Made by a program: the position numbers and the translations under genes. A stretch of 58,943 bases of DNA, from the NCBI GenBank assembly GCA_019456225.1, contig VRUI01000001.1, positions 120,678-179,620 of the forward strand, read 5' to 3'. The stretch is from Planctomycetota bacterium (GTDB lineage Bacteria > Planctomycetota > Phycisphaerae > Sedimentisphaerales > Anaerohalosphaeraceae). Within the stretch, counting starts at the first letter, position 1; the number at the start of each line of letters is the position of its first letter. Under the pieces are notes generated by a model that had not been told where the DNA came from, did no database searches, and was given only the letters and a program-made list of their open reading frames with translations. Shown piece by piece: positions 877 through 44,462 of the stretch.

Positions 877-2093
877 GGGGCATTATTATTTTTGGCTACA
901 GTTATAGTAACATCGTTGGCGACACTGGTTTTTGCTCCGTCATTTAAGGTAATTCTGGCAGTGCGGCTGGTGGTGTCGGGCGGTGCGGCGGAGTTGTTGA
1001 ACTGGATCGCCTGTATCAAGGCGCCAACGGCAATCTCATCAGCGGCAACAGAATCAAAATCTATGCGCAGGTCATTAGTTCCGGTACCATCGATTGTAAT
1101 ATCACCTATAGCTACATTGTCATAGAGAACCTCACCTGCGTTAACATAAATGCCGGTGGCGTTATTTGCATCGCTGTCGGAATTAGTGTCGATACTGAGT
1201 GTATCGTTAGCAGTAAAGTTCGCCAGGCGGTTTATAAGCAGATAGCCAGCGTCATAGTCCGTGCTTGTGACACTGGCGTTACTGCCGTTATCGATATCGA
1301 TAGCCCCACCACCTTCAGTGAATGCGACAGTATCACCATCAACATTGGAAATTACCGGGGCCGGTCCTAACGAACCTTCGTACTGCTCTGCTAATGACAT
1401 AACTATCGGTATATCGATACCGGCAGCAAGTTCATCAGCTGCATTATCGGATGCCGCTTCCAACTCCCAGTCGCCGCCTGCACCGGTAATATCATCCGAT
1501 GCAAAAATATCGCCGCCGGTCAATTTGGCAATACCGTTTAACAGAGCGGCGCCTTCAGTTGTATCTGCCGCGACATTACATCCATACAAGTAGATATTAG
1601 CATCTTCAGCGAGGTTTTCGGCAAGGCCGGACCAGTCGCCGGCTTGTGATGATAAGTTCTCTACAGAGACTGTATCGGCACCAAGTTCAAATTGCCCCAC
1701 AGAACCGTGAGATACAATTGTCAAAGACGCGATATCAGTCTTTAAATAATTGCTTAGTGTGCTGGCCTTATCTAAAATATCAGCCAGGCTTTCCTGCTTT
1801 CCATTATACTCGATGATAAATGCATCAGATTCAAAACTGGAAATGAGGTGCAGGGAATCTTTCAGGGTAACATCGATCACAGCGATATTGATACCTGTAG
1901 ACAGATCAGCTTTCGACTGAATATTAACATCGATATTGGCGTCAATGTCGATTGCGTAATGGTTCTGTATTTCGGCAACGGGGATGTCCATCGGGACAAC
2001 CGGCAGTCCAGCCGAAAATAGCACTCGCGGCTCAAGCGGTTCAAACATTGCAGTCACTTGAGCTTCAGTTTCAGTTTTTCGCGAATTTCCCAT
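1..2093 (-). CDS. LEPR-XLL / DUF4347 giant surface protein, N-terminal part (runs off left edge)
   Basis: This frame is open from the ATG at 2093 to the left edge, so about 697 residues of a longer protein are visible. Residues 18-29 read FEPLEPRVLFSA, the LEPR-XLL signature found near the N-terminus of large secreted planctomycete proteins. Residues of roughly 60-225 match the DUF4347 pattern (IVSHGSVGQFELG, then LYGCNVA, then LTGGDIFAS and GGDWELEA). After about residue 245 come beta-rich, Asp/Thr-rich modules with VTV/NDAPV signatures, of the cadherin- or Calx-beta-like type, ending in near-identical 146-residue repeats. The role is inferred to be cell-surface adhesion or envelope structure; no enzyme motif is visible. 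There is no clear ribosome-binding site. The C-terminus and any anchoring signal are outside the window. Confidence 0.88.
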   Translation of the reverse strand, partial: MGNSRKTETEAQVTAMFEPLEPRVLFSAGLPVVPMDIPVAEIQNHYAIDIDANIDVNIQSKADLSTGINIAVIDVTLKDSLHLISSFESDAFIIEYNGKQESLADILDKASTLSNYLKTDIASLTIVSHGSVGQFELGADTVSVENLSSQAGDWSGLAENLAEDANIYLYGCNVAADTTEGAALLNGIAKLTGGDIFASDDITGAGGDWELEAASDNAADELAAGIDIPIVMSLAEQYEGSLGPAPVISNVDGDTVAFTEGGGAIDIDNGSNASVTSTDYDAGYLLINRLANFTANDTLSIDTNSDSDANNATGIYVNAGEVLYDNVAIGDITIDGTGTNDLRIDFDSVAADEIAVGALIQAIQFNNSAAPPDTTSRTARITLNDGAKTSVANDVTITVAKNNNAPVLDDGQSPALTGINEDDTTSAGDTVASIVVDGSITDIDGAVEAIAVTAADDTNGTWQYKIGAGAWGAIEDGSLAADHALLLDSTDSIRFVPDADYNGAPTITFRAWDKSAGAADTYVDTTTNGTTTPYSTATDTASITVTVVNDAPVLDDGQSPTLTGINEDDTTSAGDTVARIVVDGSITDIDGAVEAIAVTAVDDTNGTWQYKIGAGSWGAIDDTSLAVGHALLLDSTDSIRFVPDADWNGAPTITFRAWDKSAGSAGSYVDTTTNGTTTPYSTATDTASITVTVVNDA

Positions 2094-38540: not shown

Positions 38541-39251
38541 GTGCGCAAGAAGAATATGTTTACATTCGATAACCGGGTTGTTCTGTACGGCCTTCAGGTA
38601 AAACCGGGGCCCCATACTGTTACCCTGTCCAAGAAAGGCAAGGGTGCGTTGTATTATTCGTGCTATCTTAGTTATTTCACCAAGGAAGAAGATGTCAAAG
38701 GTGCCGGCAACGAAATCTTCATCAAGCGTGAATATTTCAAGCTGGTTCCGTGGGCCGAAGAAGTGAAATTGGCCGATCCGGCAATAGCGGCAACACCGTC
38801 GGGCTTGCAGCAAAAACCACTCAATCAAACAGGACGAACGGAATTAAGGGCCGGTTATAAACGAGTGCCTTTGGTCTCCGGTGACACTGTAAACAGCGGC
38901 GACAAGATCGAAGTTGTTCTTAAGGTCACAGCTAAGAATACTTATGATTACCTTGCCTTTGAGGATATGAAACCGGCCGGTTGCGAACCTGTCGAAGTTC
39001 GCAGCGGAAGCCGCTGGGCCGGCGGAGTGTGTTCGCATATCGAATTCCGCGACGAAAAGGTTGTGTTCTTTGTCGGGCTGCTTGCCCAGGGCGAGCATGT
39101 CTTGCGATACAAGCTGCGCGCAGAAACACCGGGCGTATTCCATGCACTGCCGACTACCGGATTTGCTATGTATGCACCCGAGGTACGGGCAATAAGCGAT
39201 GAAATGAGGCTTGGCATTAAAGATACGGATGACACTGGAACCGACAAATAG
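38541..39251 (+). pseudogene. C-terminal fragment of an alpha-2-macroglobulin-like protein
   Basis: 236 residues matching only the last part of bacterial alpha-2-macroglobulins: ALYYSCYLSYFTKEEDVKGA, YFKLVPW, then SGDKIEVVLKVTAKNTYDYL, FEDMKPAGCEPVEVRSG and FHALPTTGFAMYAPEVRA. The full proteins are about 1500-2000 residues, with signal peptide, bait region and usually a thioester; all that is missing. The frame is open back to about 38465, where a stop occurs. CAGG before the GTG at 38541 could still allow translation of the fragment, without export. Most likely a deletion relic. The 268-bp spacer upstream holds only small AT-rich hairpins. Confidence 0.78.
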
Positions 39252-39519: not shown

Positions 39520-41373
39520 ATGACTAATAACAAGTACTTAACAGCACCGCTGCCAACAAAAAAAATGCCCGGCGGTATCCCGCACATCCTCACCCAGGAA
39601 ACGTTCGAGCGTTTCGGCTTTTATGGTATGAGATCTATCCTGGTGATATTTATGACTCAGTATCTTATGGGCGCATCAGGTGTGATGGAAGAAGCAAAAG
39701 CCAAAGAGTATTATCACTTGTTTGTGGCTATGACTTATTTAACACCAATCCTGGGAGCTATGATATCGGATGCGTTTTTGGGTAAATTCAAGACGATCAT
39801 GATATTTTCAATAATTAACATCCTTGGTTTGCTGGCTTTGGTTGTTGACCAAACACGTGTTGGACTTACGACGGGGCTTGTCTTGATCGCTATCGGGTCG
39901 GGATTTATAAAACCCAGTGTCTCTGCCAACGTTGGTGACCAGTTTGGTAAAGACAATAAACATTTGCTGGAAAAGGTCTATGGCTGGTTTTATTTTGTTG
40001 TCAACTTCGGTTCCTTCTTTTCATATATGCTGATCCCTTATCTTCTGGATAAATTCAGCCCGTCTATTCATAATGACTATGGCCCCCATACTGCAGCCCG
40101 TATCGCTTTCGGTATACCTGCCGCTTCAATGCTGCTGGCAACTCTGGTATTTTGGATGGGACGAAAAAGATTTGTCCATGCTCCACCTTCCGGTCTTGCA
40201 CATATCAAGAAGAGTCTAACTGGTGATGGGATCAAGATTCTCGGCAGACTTGCGGTTATCTATTCGTTCATTGCAATGTTCTGGGCATTGTTCACCCAGA
40301 TGGATTCGGCATTGATGCTGCTGGGAAAAGACTTGAATCTAAATTGGTTGGGTGTCAAGTGGCTGCCGCCACAGATAGGTGCTGCTAATCCATTGATAGT
40401 GATGGCTCTGATTCCAATATTCGCCTTCGGTGTCTATCCGATGATGAATAAAATATTTCGCTTAACACCACTCCGCAAGATATCAATAGGGCTCTTTATT
40501 GCAGCTTTGGCATTTGTTGTACCGGCATTGATCGAGATAAGGATCAGCGAGATTCGCCATGACAATCAACCAATAGGTGAAGTAGTATTCAACGGTAAAT
40601 CGATGACTGATCTTCGTATAGATTTTGATACTCCCGCAGCTAATGGCGATGCTGTCAAAGCCCTGATGGCTTCTCTACAGTTCGATAACTCCACCGAGGA
40701 TCCAAATACTATTGTTCGGACTGCACGGATAACACTTGCTGATGCTTCAGGTGCGGTGTATGAAAATGATGTTACAATAACAATTCTCCCAAAAGTTGAG
40801 CTGATTGACACTGAGATAGACACTGAGGTTGACAGCGGTATTGTGAAATTTACTACACAGGGCGATCCCGTTGATATTGCCTCAGTTGATTTTGACCTGC
40901 CCGATGATGCTAACTTCAATGGCGGGTATCTGCTAATTCATCGACAGAAGAATTTCAACTCAAAAGACAGATTCAGTATCAATATCAATTCCGATGTAGA
41001 TGCCGATATTAACACCGGGATAGGTAGAGATAAACCGAGTATTGCCTGGCTGGTCCTTGCGGTTTTGATATTGACAATAGCTGAAGTAATGGTTTCGATC
41101 ACCGTTCTTGAGTTCTCTTACACTCAGGCCCCAAAAGAAATGAAATCGCTTATAATGGCGGTTTCGTCGCTGGCGGTATTTGGCGGGAGTATGTTTGCGG
41201 CCCAGGTTAATCGTTTTATTTACGTTAAAGACGGGCCCAGTAAGCTCGAAGGGGCGAGCTATTTCTGGTTCTTTGCCGGAGCGATGCTGCTGACGGCTGT
41301 AGTGTTTATTCCGTTTGCGGCCCGCTATAAGGAACATACTTTTATCCAGGACGAAACTTCTGAGAGTGATTGA
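39520..41373 (+). CDS. POT/PTR-family peptide transporter with extracellular domain insertion
   Basis: 617 residues, inner-membrane proton-coupled di/tripeptide symporter. The family hallmark is clear: QETFERFGFYGMRSILVIFM with the proton-coupling ExxER-type motif (residues about 26-31), GSGFIKPSVSANVGDQFG, and YGWFYFVVNFGSF. Between the ninth helix (ISIGLFIAALAFVVPALIEI) and the tenth (SIAWLVLAVLILTIAEVMV), about residues 345-505 form a soluble beta-rich insertion. This is where animal PepT1/PepT2 carry their extracellular domain; most bacterial members lack one (established knowledge). The insertion contains DLRIDFDTPAANGDAVKALM and GYLLIHRQKNFN, matching the surface protein at 935-1250 in swapped order. 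The S9 peptidase gene follows after 19 bp. Confidence 0.93.
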   Translation: MTNNKYLTAPLPTKKMPGGIPHILTQETFERFGFYGMRSILVIFMTQYLMGASGVMEEAKAKEYYHLFVAMTYLTPILGAMISDAFLGKFKTIMIFSIINILGLLALVVDQTRVGLTTGLVLIAIGSGFIKPSVSANVGDQFGKDNKHLLEKVYGWFYFVVNFGSFFSYMLIPYLLDKFSPSIHNDYGPHTAARIAFGIPAASMLLATLVFWMGRKRFVHAPPSGLAHIKKSLTGDGIKILGRLAVIYSFIAMFWALFTQMDSALMLLGKDLNLNWLGVKWLPPQIGAANPLIVMALIPIFAFGVYPMMNKIFRLTPLRKISIGLFIAALAFVVPALIEIRISEIRHDNQPIGEVVFNGKSMTDLRIDFDTPAANGDAVKALMASLQFDNSTEDPNTIVRTARITLADASGAVYENDVTITILPKVELIDTEIDTEVDSGIVKFTTQGDPVDIASVDFDLPDDANFNGGYLLIHRQKNFNSKDRFSININSDVDADINTGIGRDKPSIAWLVLAVLILTIAEVMVSITVLEFSYTQAPKEMKSLIMAVSSLAVFGGSMFAAQVNRFIYVKDGPSKLEGASYFWFFAGAMLLTAVVFIPFAARYKEHTFIQDETSESD

Positions 41374-41392: not shown

Positions 41393-43441
41393 ATGCGAGT
41401 AATCAATTTGTTTCTGATCGTTTGTTTGACGACAGGTTGTGTAAGCGCCGAGAAAAATTCACAGAAGACGCATCCGTTTTCTGTTCATGATATGATGGCG
41501 ATGGATCGGATATCCGATCCGCAGGTTTCGCCTGATGGAAAGAAGATTGTTTTTACATTGCGAAAGACCGATCTGAAAGAAAATAAGGTCCGAACCGATC
41601 TCTGGCTTACAGGTGTCGACGGCAAAGGACTTCGCCAGCTGACATCGCATCCGGAAGGCGACTTTAATCCTCGCTGGTCAACTGACGGCAAGAGCATTTG
41701 GTTTCTCTCAGGCAGGAGCGAATCATCACAGGTTTACAAGATTCCTGTCGATGGAGGAGAAGCGCAGCAGGTAACCAGCCTGCCTCTTGATGTTTCTAAT
41801 CTGGTGGTATCTGCTGACGGTAAGCACATCGCTTTTACTATGCAGGTTTTTCCGGATGGCAGTTCCCCGGAGGCTACGAAGAAAAAACTCGATGCGATCG
41901 AAGAGAGCAAGTCCACCGGTGTGATCTATGACAAGGTGTTTATTCGCCACTGGGACACATGGAAGGACGGCAGGCGTTCGCATCTGTTCGTTTTACCGGT
42001 ATCCGGTGGGGAAGCTGTCGATGTGATGAGTGGTATGGATGCTGATGCTCCAACGATACCCTGGGGCGGGACCGAAGAGATCGCTTTTTCGCCCGACGGC
42101 AAAGAGATCGTTTTTTCTGCTCGCGATGTCGGCAGGGAGGAACCGTGGTCGACAGATGTTGATCTTTACCGTGTTCCTATCAACGGATCAACTGCGCCAA
42201 AGTGCATCACGGAGAAAAACAAGGCATGGGATACCGGTCCGCTTTTTTCTCCCGATGGTAAAATACTGGCATACCTGGCGATGACAAAGCCCGGTTACGA
42301 GTCGGATCGCTTACGCATAGTCCTGCACGACTGGGCAAGCGGCAAAAAACGTGTTCTTACAGAAAAATGGGACCGAAGCCCTTCGTCTATTTGCTGGTCG
42401 GCGGATGGCAAGACTATCTATGCAACTGCGACAAATGTTGGACAGAAGTCTTTGTTCGCTATTGATACGGCCAAAGGCAGGGTTCGCGTTGTCGTTAAAG
42501 ATGGGTCCGTAAGCTCGCCTTCTATTGCCGGAAAAAGAATTGTTTACGGCATGGACAATTTAAAGTCACCTGTTGAACTCTATTCGGTTAAGGCCGACGG
42601 GCGCGATATTCGTGCGATCACACAGATCAATAAAGTCAAGGTCGCAGCGGCTCGGATGGGCAGCTATGAGCAGTTTGTTTTTAAGGGGTGGAAAAACGAA
42701 AAAGTATATTGTTATGTGGTAAAGCCCGCCGATTTCGCTCCGGGCAGGACATACCCTGTCGCGTTTTTAATACACGGCGGCCCGCAGGGTTCTTTCGGCA
42801 ACCATTTTCATTATCGCTGGAATCCGCAGGTATACGCCGGGGCCGGATATGTATCAGTCATGATAGACTTCCACGGCTCTACAGGTTACGGGCAGGACTT
42901 CACTGATTCTATTGGCGGTGACTGGGGCGGCAAACCGCTGGTCGACCTTCAAAAAGGACTCGCTGCTTTCTTAAAGCGTTACCGCTGGGCAGACGCCAAC
43001 AGGGTAGGTGCTTTGGGTGCTTCTTTTGGCGGGTATATGATCAACTGGATCGAAGGCAATTGGCAGGGGGCTTTTAAATGCATGGTAAACCATGACGGCA
43101 ACCTGGATGAGCGGATGGCCTACTATGATACTGAAGAGCTTTGGTTTCCTGAATGGGATCATCGCGGAACGCCGTGGGACAACCCGAAAGGCTATGAAAA
43201 ACACAACCCCGTCAACTTTGTCAAAAACTGGAAAACTCCAATGCTCGTTATTCATGGCGCCCTGGATTACAGGGTAGTTGATACTCAGGGCATCGCGACA
43301 TTTAACGCCTTGCAGAGGCTTGGCATCGAAAGCAAATTTCTTTATTTCCCGGACGAAAATCATTGGGTGCTCAAGCCCCACAACTCCATTCTCTGGCACG
43401 ATACAGTAATCGGCTGGCTGGATCACTATCTTAAAAAATGA
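41393..43441 (+). CDS. S9 (prolyl-oligopeptidase/DPP-type) peptidase lipoprotein
   Basis: 682 residues. A short signal peptide with lipobox LTTGC (Cys 16) places it at a membrane, outside the cytoplasm. An N-terminal beta-propeller with repeated SPDGKKI/SADGKTI motifs is followed by the alpha/beta-hydrolase domain: oxyanion-region LIHGGPQGSFG, Ser 544 in GASFGGYM, Asp 625 in HGALDYRV and His 657 in DENHWVL. Such enzymes release dipeptides or short peptides from oligopeptides. AAAAGGAAAAG lies before the ATG. Immediately downstream of a peptide transporter gene, it probably supplies the transporter with substrates. Confidence 0.94.
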   Translation: MRVINLFLIVCLTTGCVSAEKNSQKTHPFSVHDMMAMDRISDPQVSPDGKKIVFTLRKTDLKENKVRTDLWLTGVDGKGLRQLTSHPEGDFNPRWSTDGKSIWFLSGRSESSQVYKIPVDGGEAQQVTSLPLDVSNLVVSADGKHIAFTMQVFPDGSSPEATKKKLDAIEESKSTGVIYDKVFIRHWDTWKDGRRSHLFVLPVSGGEAVDVMSGMDADAPTIPWGGTEEIAFSPDGKEIVFSARDVGREEPWSTDVDLYRVPINGSTAPKCITEKNKAWDTGPLFSPDGKILAYLAMTKPGYESDRLRIVLHDWASGKKRVLTEKWDRSPSSICWSADGKTIYATATNVGQKSLFAIDTAKGRVRVVVKDGSVSSPSIAGKRIVYGMDNLKSPVELYSVKADGRDIRAITQINKVKVAAARMGSYEQFVFKGWKNEKVYCYVVKPADFAPGRTYPVAFLIHGGPQGSFGNHFHYRWNPQVYAGAGYVSVMIDFHGSTGYGQDFTDSIGGDWGGKPLVDLQKGLAAFLKRYRWADANRVGALGASFGGYMINWIEGNWQGAFKCMVNHDGNLDERMAYYDTEELWFPEWDHRGTPWDNPKGYEKHNPVNFVKNWKTPMLVIHGALDYRVVDTQGIATFNALQRLGIESKFLYFPDENHWVLKPHNSILWHDTVIGWLDHYLKK

Positions 43442-43720: not shown

Positions 43721-43754
43721 TAACTCAAACTGACTGCCGGTCGGTTTGATAAAA

Positions 43755-43842
43755 CGGAGAAGGCGGGATTCGAACCCGCGGTACCCCAAAAGGGTACACT
43801 GATTTTCGAAACCAGCTCCTTAAGCCACTCGGACACCTCTCC
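43755..43842 (-). tRNA. tRNA-Ser (anticodon CGA)
   Basis: The 88-base cloverleaf on the minus strand has acceptor stem GGAGAGG/CTTCTCC, a D-arm beginning TCCGAGTGGCTTAAG, an anticodon stem CTGGT/ATCAG with loop TTCGAAA (anticodon CGA, reading UCG), a long variable arm (GTACCC/GGGTAC) as in serine tRNAs, and T-arm GCGGG-TTCGAAT-CCCGC. CCA is not encoded. A hairpin at 43726-43748 lies just past the 3' end and could terminate it. The tRNA sits between gene relics, a common place for element integration. Confidence 0.95.
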
Positions 43843-44462
43843 ATGAATTTCTTACAGGGCTTCTGTAAACCCTTTATTTTAAAAAGCGTAGATTCAGCAT
43901 TTAGCAAAATCCGCATTAACTTATAACTTTTGAGTTATAAGCAGTTTGCTTAGTACCAAACTCATGGAAATTTTGGTAAAAAACAGAGGCGGATTGTAGC
44001 ATGGCCAAGCCGGCAAAGCAAGCAGAATAACCGGTAAATATCTATAAGTGAACGAGTTTATTTTGGGGCAATGTACTGCCTGTGGTTGCAGCCATAAGGA
44101 TTTTGGATAAATCTCTCTTGCTCCTATTAGTTTAACGCGAGTATATTGCGTGGATTTCACTCAGTAAACTCCTCGAAAAACTGGTACGAAACTGGTACGT
44201 TTGTGGTACGTTTTTCATTTTGCGAGATTCTCAATATCCAGTATATCCTCTGACTTCGGCATTTAAAGCCCATTACACCACTTTTGCGACATACACAATA
44301 TATCCGGTACAATTAACCTATTTACCAGCTTTAATAAGGAAAAGCCTTGCTTAAGGCGGCCCAGTGAAAATCACCACGGTCTAGGCTGTACTGCCTACAG
44401 GATGGACATAGAATGATTAAGGAGAAATCGTCGTCACTGCTATTGGCCACTAAAAAATCTCA
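43843..44462. other. Non-coding spacer beside tRNA-Ser
   Basis: About 620 bp without a supported gene. It holds an AT-rich palindrome (ATAACTTTTGAGTTAT at 43922-43937) and three closely spaced TGGTACG words at about 44182-44210. No integrase or full attachment duplication of the tRNA 3' end is seen. Probably an eroded insertion zone. Confidence 0.45.

Follow-up and report, generated by a model that had tools for sequence, protein, structure and literature searches.

A Putative Circularly Permuted Surface-protein Domain in the TM9-TM10 Loop of a Planctomycete Peptide Transporter

The gene at positions 39520-41373 (plus strand) of the window, that is, the whole 58,943-nucleotide stretch of Planctomycetota DNA analyzed here, raises the question of how a domain of surface proteins can be accommodated, with its halves in exchanged order, in a loop of a peptide transporter. 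A first-pass annotation of this DNA had placed the domain between the ninth and tenth helices, at the site of the mammalian ectodomain. The reading favored here, with fairly good confidence, is that a permuted copy of a surface domain was built into the periplasmic TM9-TM10 loop of this proton-coupled oligopeptide transporter (POT), that the swap aided its fit, and that the insert perhaps serves in peptidase docking.

The transporter core and the position of the insert

The open reading frame at 39520-41373 is unbroken and encodes 617 aa. It was matched by PTR2 (PF00854) in three stretches (E 2.3e-61; 208.3 bits against a cut-off of 27) and by TIGR00924, the sole NCBIfam model over its own cut-off (135.5 bits; cut-off 130.2); the score of TIGR00926 was higher at 294.7, yet under that model's cut-off of 821.6. 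The top matches among solved structures were PepTSo (2xut; 2.9e-69), PepTXc (6ei3; 5.3e-57), and PepT2/PepT1, the first two being the nearest solved transporter cores. Hydropathy analysis placed nine membrane stretches N-terminal to residue 340 and three C-terminal to residue 510 (overlapping windows were merged by eye). The sequence ETFERFGFYG aligns with EACERFSFYG in TM1 of PepTSo, an ExxERF-type motif that we take to be the TM1 motif of POT/PTR2 transporters. Both the 12 TM helices and the TM1 motif that characterize the POT/PTR2 class are thus present, and proton-coupled uptake of di- and tripeptides is the predicted activity. No other PTR2 gene was detected in the source genome, a draft assembly of 152 contigs.

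The TM1-TM9 part comprises residues 1-338 (39520-40533, plus strand), as judged from the PepTSo alignment and hydropathy, and the TM10-TM12 part comprises residues 505-617 (41032-41370, plus strand), as judged from structure alignment and hydropathy. Between them lies an insert of 164 residues, 341-504 (window positions 40540-41031). The N terminus of known POTs lies inside the cell. With nine membrane stretches before the insert and three after it, and the N terminus taken as inside, residues 341-504 should lie on the outer (periplasmic) side.

Residues 238-354 of the transporter aligned to residues 296-412 of human PepT2, and residues 489-566 aligned to residues 589-666. Because the alignment halts at PepT2 residue 412 and restarts at 589, the insert sits at the site of the human ectodomain, which is described as a region of ∼190 residues between a TM9 end near 409 and a TM10 start near 604; the placement made in the first-pass annotation was therefore correct. 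The transporter resembles mammalian PepT1/PepT2 (SLC15A1/2) in that an outside β-sandwich is inserted precisely between TM9 and TM10. Between TM6 and TM7, the HA-HB helices are missing (PepTSo residues 209-289 face only residues 225-232 of the query), and these helices are described as absent from the mammalian proteins too (PMC8565842). By contrast, PepTSo and PepTXc have ∼80 extra residues (HA-HB) between TM6 and TM7 and few residues between TM9 and TM10 (396 to 402 and 387 to 392, respectively).

The likeness seen between the insert and the PepT ectodomain is one of position. The human ectodomain is reported to consist of two tandem Ig-like folds (PMC4597091), whereas the insert is predicted to be one permuted domain of ∼160 residues; two such folds in tandem were not found in it, its 11 secondary structure elements making up one canonical domain. 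A profile comparison with the PepT ectodomain gave no sequence match up to an E value of 10. Because the closest POT relatives (L006 and L007) have a TM9-TM10 loop of 7-8 aa, an origin independent of the mammalian ectodomain is most likely. Bacterial POTs are stated to lack a TM9-TM10 ectodomain, which is described as known only in mammalian PepT1/2 (PMC4597091 and PMC8565842), a statement with which an ectodomain at the mammalian site of a bacterial POT contrasts. Among the titles and abstract openings of the open-licence literature, no prior report of a bacterial POT ectodomain or of such a permutation was found.

The exchanged halves of the insert and the surface domain family

The counterpart of the insert is found ∼39 kb from the transporter gene, in the N-terminal part of a giant surface protein (2096-1, minus strand). 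The surface ORF starts at 2096 and leaves the window at its left end; when continued, it runs to 2820 codons with two N stretches. Profile scans of the encoded protein revealed a LEPR-XLL motif (20.5 bits; cut-off 17) and DUF4347 (E 3.6e-31), and inspection by eye of the part beyond the window revealed a long series of cadherin-like repeats and, close to the C terminus, a hydrophobic stretch. The LEPR-XLL motif is associated with PVC-type bacteria and makes such a source likely. A canonical copy of the domain, in normal order, occupies surface residues 250-400 (897-1349, minus strand), as delimited by BLASTP, profile, and AlphaFold2 model.

In BLASTP, insert residues 340-422 (40537-40785, plus strand) matched surface residues 318-400, the C-terminal half of the canonical copy (897-1145, minus strand), with 47% over 83 aa (E 2e-21), and insert residues 435-501 (40822-41022, plus strand) matched surface residues 250-316, the N-terminal half (1149-1349, minus strand), with 40% over 67 aa (E 9e-12). 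The profile and the AlphaFold2 model give the same assignment of the two insert halves. They are joined by a linker, residues 423-434 (40786-40821, plus strand), which runs from the strand that ends the canonical domain to the half that begins it and has low confidence in the model. The matching surface segments had earlier been given as 905-1080 and 1140-1320; these numbers proved to be window nucleotides on the minus strand of the surface ORF. When the insert was aligned locally to the surface protein as one piece, the native order gave a score of 190 and the swapped halves gave 292; among 300 shuffles of each arrangement, the highest scores were 76 and 89, respectively.

A domain profile was built solely from other genomes, which contributed 32 distinct domain sequences; the loci of these sequences had been retrieved by using the surface copy as the query. 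On the transporter, this profile matched in two pieces, positions 67-138 first and positions 9-63 second (37.7 and 13.7 bits; 39.8 and 16.5 bits on the insert alone), and on the surface copy it matched in one piece (101.9 bits). By itself, the second piece on the transporter was non-significant at 13.7 bits (E 2.6 per million sequences); with the surface copy of the same genome included in the profile, the insert halves matched with E values of 2.2e-11 and 0.005. Both halves thus match the domain by profile, the second one weakly when source-genome sequences are left out. Of 30 domain copies, with the surface copy of the same genome among them, 26 gave a higher score to the swapped insert than to the native order, and the other 4 did not; the score was 307 against that surface copy and 135 against the next domain copy. 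All six invariant or nearly invariant canonical positions were seen by eye in the insert.

Since the pairwise and shuffle scores agree with the profile free of source-genome sequences, the order of the halves is, on this sequence evidence, reversed relative to the surface domain, as the first-pass annotation had it. The N-half-before-C-half order of the surface domain family is not kept, and by the same comparisons the insert is a circular permutant of an unnamed surface repeat domain. In its native order, the insert is colinear with seven inter-repeat segments of tandem arrays from other genomes, and the distance from profile position 138 to position 9 is 29 residues in the insert and about 25 in the arrays, the linker being ∼4 residues longer. 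The pairwise comparison, the profile, and the array junctions agree that one domain has been cut in a different phase, which had likewise been suggested. Because of the native alignment with the seven inter-repeat segments, the simplest path would be excision across a repeat boundary, or duplication of the domain with later loss of the two outer halves, and then insertion into the loop. The DNA identity between the insert and the surface copy is 57 and 53% for the two halves, from which it follows that the event was not recent. The GC content is 42.6% in the insert and 43.8 and 47.4% in its flanks, and GC3 is 37.3% and 47.0 and 51.8%, respectively; given the lower GC3, the insert may have originated outside the source genome.

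At an E value of 1e-4, 19 of the 392 genomes sampled from the phylum contained the domain, source genome included, and a profile search of 159 genomes of the order detected it in 4. The full-length matches in genomes of the phylum are in normal order. By profile, the same domain occurs in long surface-type proteins of the phylum, among them those of the LEPR/DUF4347 type, where it is single or in tandem, in contrast to the permuted domain inside a membrane protein described here. Within the stretches fetched, 5 of the 18 other genomes had tandem copies (L066/L082/L087, L069, L079, L062/L083, and L072), and the surface protein itself, where readable, has a single copy; the earlier term "repeat-type" is therefore apt for related proteins elsewhere but not for that readable part. 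The searchable part of the source genome yielded two copies, the insert and the surface copy, so that a normal and a permuted copy occur in one genome. In trees built with the swapped concatenation of the insert halves, these two copies were sisters (UFBoot 100), at a distance of 1.05 from each other; the next copies were at 1.92 and 1.87. Pfam scans gave nothing over the cut-off for the insert (best DUF7929, E 0.012) or for 29 canonical copies (best BACON, 0.0082), and PDB sequence searches with the canonical and insert profiles gave no match.

The canonical domain was modeled with AlphaFold2 from a 29-row alignment (pLDDT 88.9; pTM 0.85), and the insert was modeled from 66 rows, 58 of which were half-domains (pLDDT 80.7; pTM 0.75). 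The insert was treated apart from the rest of the transporter because the halves came out misaligned when whole POTs and half-domains were combined in MAFFT. The canonical model contains a first group of strands at 7-11, 36-43, and 49-53, followed by a second group with strands at 67-70, 73-76, 79-87, and 94-98, a helix at 105-113, and strands at 115-119, 129-136, and 145-152. The insert model contains strands at 5-8, 11-14, 17-25, and 32-35, a helix at 43-51, and strands at 53-57, 67-74, and 80-90, followed by strands at 108-112, 137-144, and 150-154. The 11 elements pair one to one between the models with the groups exchanged, and the permutation cut falls in the loop after canonical strand 49-53. 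In the insert model, confidence is low in the linker, around residues 91-107, and over the final 18 residues. Both halves of the insert are thus predicted to close into one permuted domain, the point for which the first-pass annotation had proposed structure prediction.

The models suggest an Ig/cohesin-like β-sandwich of an unnamed family. With VIA-align, the best match of the canonical model was B4GALNT1 (Z 9.4 over 113 residues; 2.6-2.7 Å), followed by pilus chaperones, cohesins, and Calx-beta (Z about 7). The insert model gave jelly-roll-like and other matches with a best Z of 6.4; a Z below 8 may reflect a common arrangement only. The fold matches of both models are weak, and Foldseek searches with the domain models gave no match at an E value of 0.001 or better. 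The PepT ectodomain was absent from the VIA-align lists of both models, an absence that excludes nothing.

The TM9-TM10 loop in other POTs

A POT match was present in 65 of 392 genomes of the phylum, 38 of 298 of the class, and 57 of 148 of the order. Fifty of these 57 order POTs were extracted; the TM9-TM10 loop is 6-13 aa long in 42, seven contain another insert of 260-349 aa, and the remaining one is the transporter described here. This distribution ruled out that the insert is an ordinary insert of bacterial POTs. The search for POTs with the same insertion, which had also been proposed, found none in other genomes of the order, the source genome being the 1 of 161.

A wider set of 110 POT rows was sorted by loop length, giving 90 at ≤14 aa, 5 at 33-59 aa, and 15 at 84-349 aa; these rows were partly picked for long frames, contain genome G004 twice, and include three Myxococcota, so that the counts are not frequencies. 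The three Myxococcota POTs, from a genome contig scan, each have a loop of 9 aa. The 15 long loops comprise the present insert, eight discoidin-like inserts, a Big_9 insert (L096), and five helical-looking inserts (L088, L105, L131, L132, and L145). Because relatives hold inserts of other origin, the TM9-TM10 loop seems to be a general acceptor site for outside domains.

The Big_9 insert of L096 (218 aa) starts mid-unit (profile positions 36-88; E 3.9e-6) and continues with a second Big_9 unit (positions 30-88; E 4.8e-7), the first part of which was recognized by eye. Its end corresponds to an N-terminal part, matching Cadherin_4 at positions 3-32 when scanned alone (E 0.0047) and at 2-32 in the whole insert. 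By these profile boundaries, L096 is a second TM9-TM10 insert cut out of phase. It thus resembles the present transporter in having surface-type Ig-like repeats with an out-of-phase cut in the same loop, but the domain family is a different one.

The discoidin-like inserts, assigned by pattern, span 200-349 aa (L019, L027, L030, L031, L034, L038, L039, and L123), and most hold a helical-looking stretch. The seven order POTs with inserts of 260-349 aa look alike by eye; three of them, aligned with L123, were 29-50% to the first. A four-row profile covering 4 of the 8 discoidin-like inserts gave no sequence match in the PDB, and Pfam gave a weak F5_F8_type_C_2 match for L031 (E 0.097) and none for L123.

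Helical-looking inserts of 52-180 aa were seen in the TM9-TM10 loop of L088, L131, L132, L105, L145, and L148-L150, some of them with repeated 'AAGWTDGQIAPYL'-like units; that of L132 matched PF01323 (DSBA) with 27.1 bits, slightly above the cut-off of 25.6. L088 (genome G535) had been a candidate for sharing the present insert, with a tblastn match over residues 14-613, but was rejected since its 152 aa insert is helical-looking and gave no BLAST match. In a further six POTs (L103, L106, L111, L113, L114, and L116), the TM9-TM10 loop is short and it is the TM11-TM12 loop that holds an extra ∼180-220 aa; of two such inserts scanned, that of L106 gave nothing and that of L111 gave a weak match to T2SS protein G (E 0.013, below the cut-off).

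Proposed origin and role of the insert

The most likely course of events is that a tandem-type surface domain contributed an out-of-register piece, which was inserted into the periplasmic TM9-TM10 loop. In its usual setting, the domain would be threaded head to tail in a chain. The ends of chain-type β-sandwiches usually lie at opposite poles. A cut across the repeat boundary, taking the C-half of one unit with the N-half of the next, would bring both new ends to one loop, and the permuted domain could then hang from two adjacent helix ends without forcing them apart. The domain probably fits the loop because the swap sets its ends side by side, as would be expected from the reported trend for inserted domains to have close ends (median 14.3 Å versus 29.8 Å; PMC13114784). 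In its normal register, a chain-type β-sandwich would not satisfy this demand, whereas a permuted one could. The locus would then be a clean, testable example of how a bead-on-a-string domain can be converted by permutation so as to sit in a loop.

The least certain step concerns function. The insert would stand outside the transport cycle and might act as a periplasmic docking platform, perhaps for the peptidase encoded downstream. Such docking is proposed by analogy with the mammalian ectodomain, which is reported to bind trypsin and to be removable without appreciable loss of transport (PMC4597091). The most plausible partner would be the DPP-like lipoprotein of the next gene, an S9 (prolyl oligopeptidase/DPP-IV-like) peptidase at 41393-43441 (plus strand; Peptidase_S9 2e-58, PD40 7e-25, and DPPIV_N 9.7e-7), so that fresh di- and tripeptides could be imported at once. 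Its start codon lies 19 bp past the transporter stop codon, and the protein has a lipoprotein-type signal (LTTGC, by eye) and a DPP-IV-type propeller. The products of this S9 peptidase would be POT substrates. The adjacency is the sole support for the role suggested in the first-pass annotation, the recruiting of peptides or peptidases, and it is a single case, since no S9 catalytic part was found near the POT in the other loci examined (flanks mostly 0.2-1.5 kb); the link is therefore suggestive only. Propeller-like sequences lie near the POT in L018, L020, L022, L023, L026, L027, and L031, with no match to the catalytic part; over the N-terminal 411 residues of the S9 peptidase, they match at 23-32%.

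It is rather unlikely that the insertion is functionless and merely tolerated, in a loop that takes any self-contained domain, with this one drifting. The reported dispensability of the mammalian ectodomain (PMC4597091) would agree with such tolerance, as would the several unrelated inserts in this loop and the restriction of the present one to a single genome of the order. However, the open frame and the six conserved positions have been kept while the DNA diverged to 53-57% identity, which suggests selection on the insert.

Binding of a glycan or wall polymer, which would place the transporter at the cell-surface matrix, is an unlikely role. It would suit the weak jelly-roll/CBM/F5-8C-like neighbors of the permuted model (Z 4.5-6.4), the presence of the sister copy in a giant surface protein, and the discoidin-resembling inserts in the same loop of relatives; on the other hand, these neighbors all have Z values below 8, possibly a common arrangement only, and no glycan-binding residues were identified in the insert.

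A probability somewhat lower than that of glycan binding is assigned to each of two further explanations. In one, the insert would be an inter-repeat fragment whose halves pair with a second transporter molecule, as a domain swap, or with the surface domain. The colinearity with the C-half/linker/N-half junctions of the arrays, where each half comes from a different domain, and the linker of nearly array length are consistent with this; the AlphaFold2 prediction speaks against it, all 11 canonical elements being contained in one model (pTM 0.75), residues 1-157 of which align to single-domain proteins. In the other, the domain would act on the transporter itself, for example through a contact with TM1 that eases transport, an effect that has been reported for PepT1. 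The insert does share the site of the human ectodomain, but the domain family is otherwise one of long surface-type proteins, and the great majority of the extracted order POTs manage with a short loop. Chance similarity or an assembly artefact, for which the draft state of the assembly and the N stretches in the surface gene could be invoked, is ruled out for practical purposes by the BLASTP E values, the profile free of source-genome sequences, the unbroken frame, and copies whose DNA identity of 53-57% is unlike that of a misassembly product.

With the permuted, loop-inserted surface domain as the preferred reading, a wider generalization may be raised, although it is doubtful: out-of-register excision from the chains of surface proteins might recurrently make loop-insertable domains, and bacteria might repeatedly, and independently of animals, have built TM9-TM10 ectodomains that hold peptidases or the cell-surface matrix at the mouth of the transporter, which would parallel the PepT-trypsin idea in bacteria.

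Two other features flank the transporter and peptidase genes. In the ORF at 38541-39251 (plus strand), only the C-terminal bMG10 of bacterial α2-macroglobulins was matched (E 1.1e-26), and this ORF looks like the remnant of a far longer gene. A tRNA-Ser (cga) gene lies at 43754-43843 on the minus strand, about 310 bp past the S9 peptidase gene.
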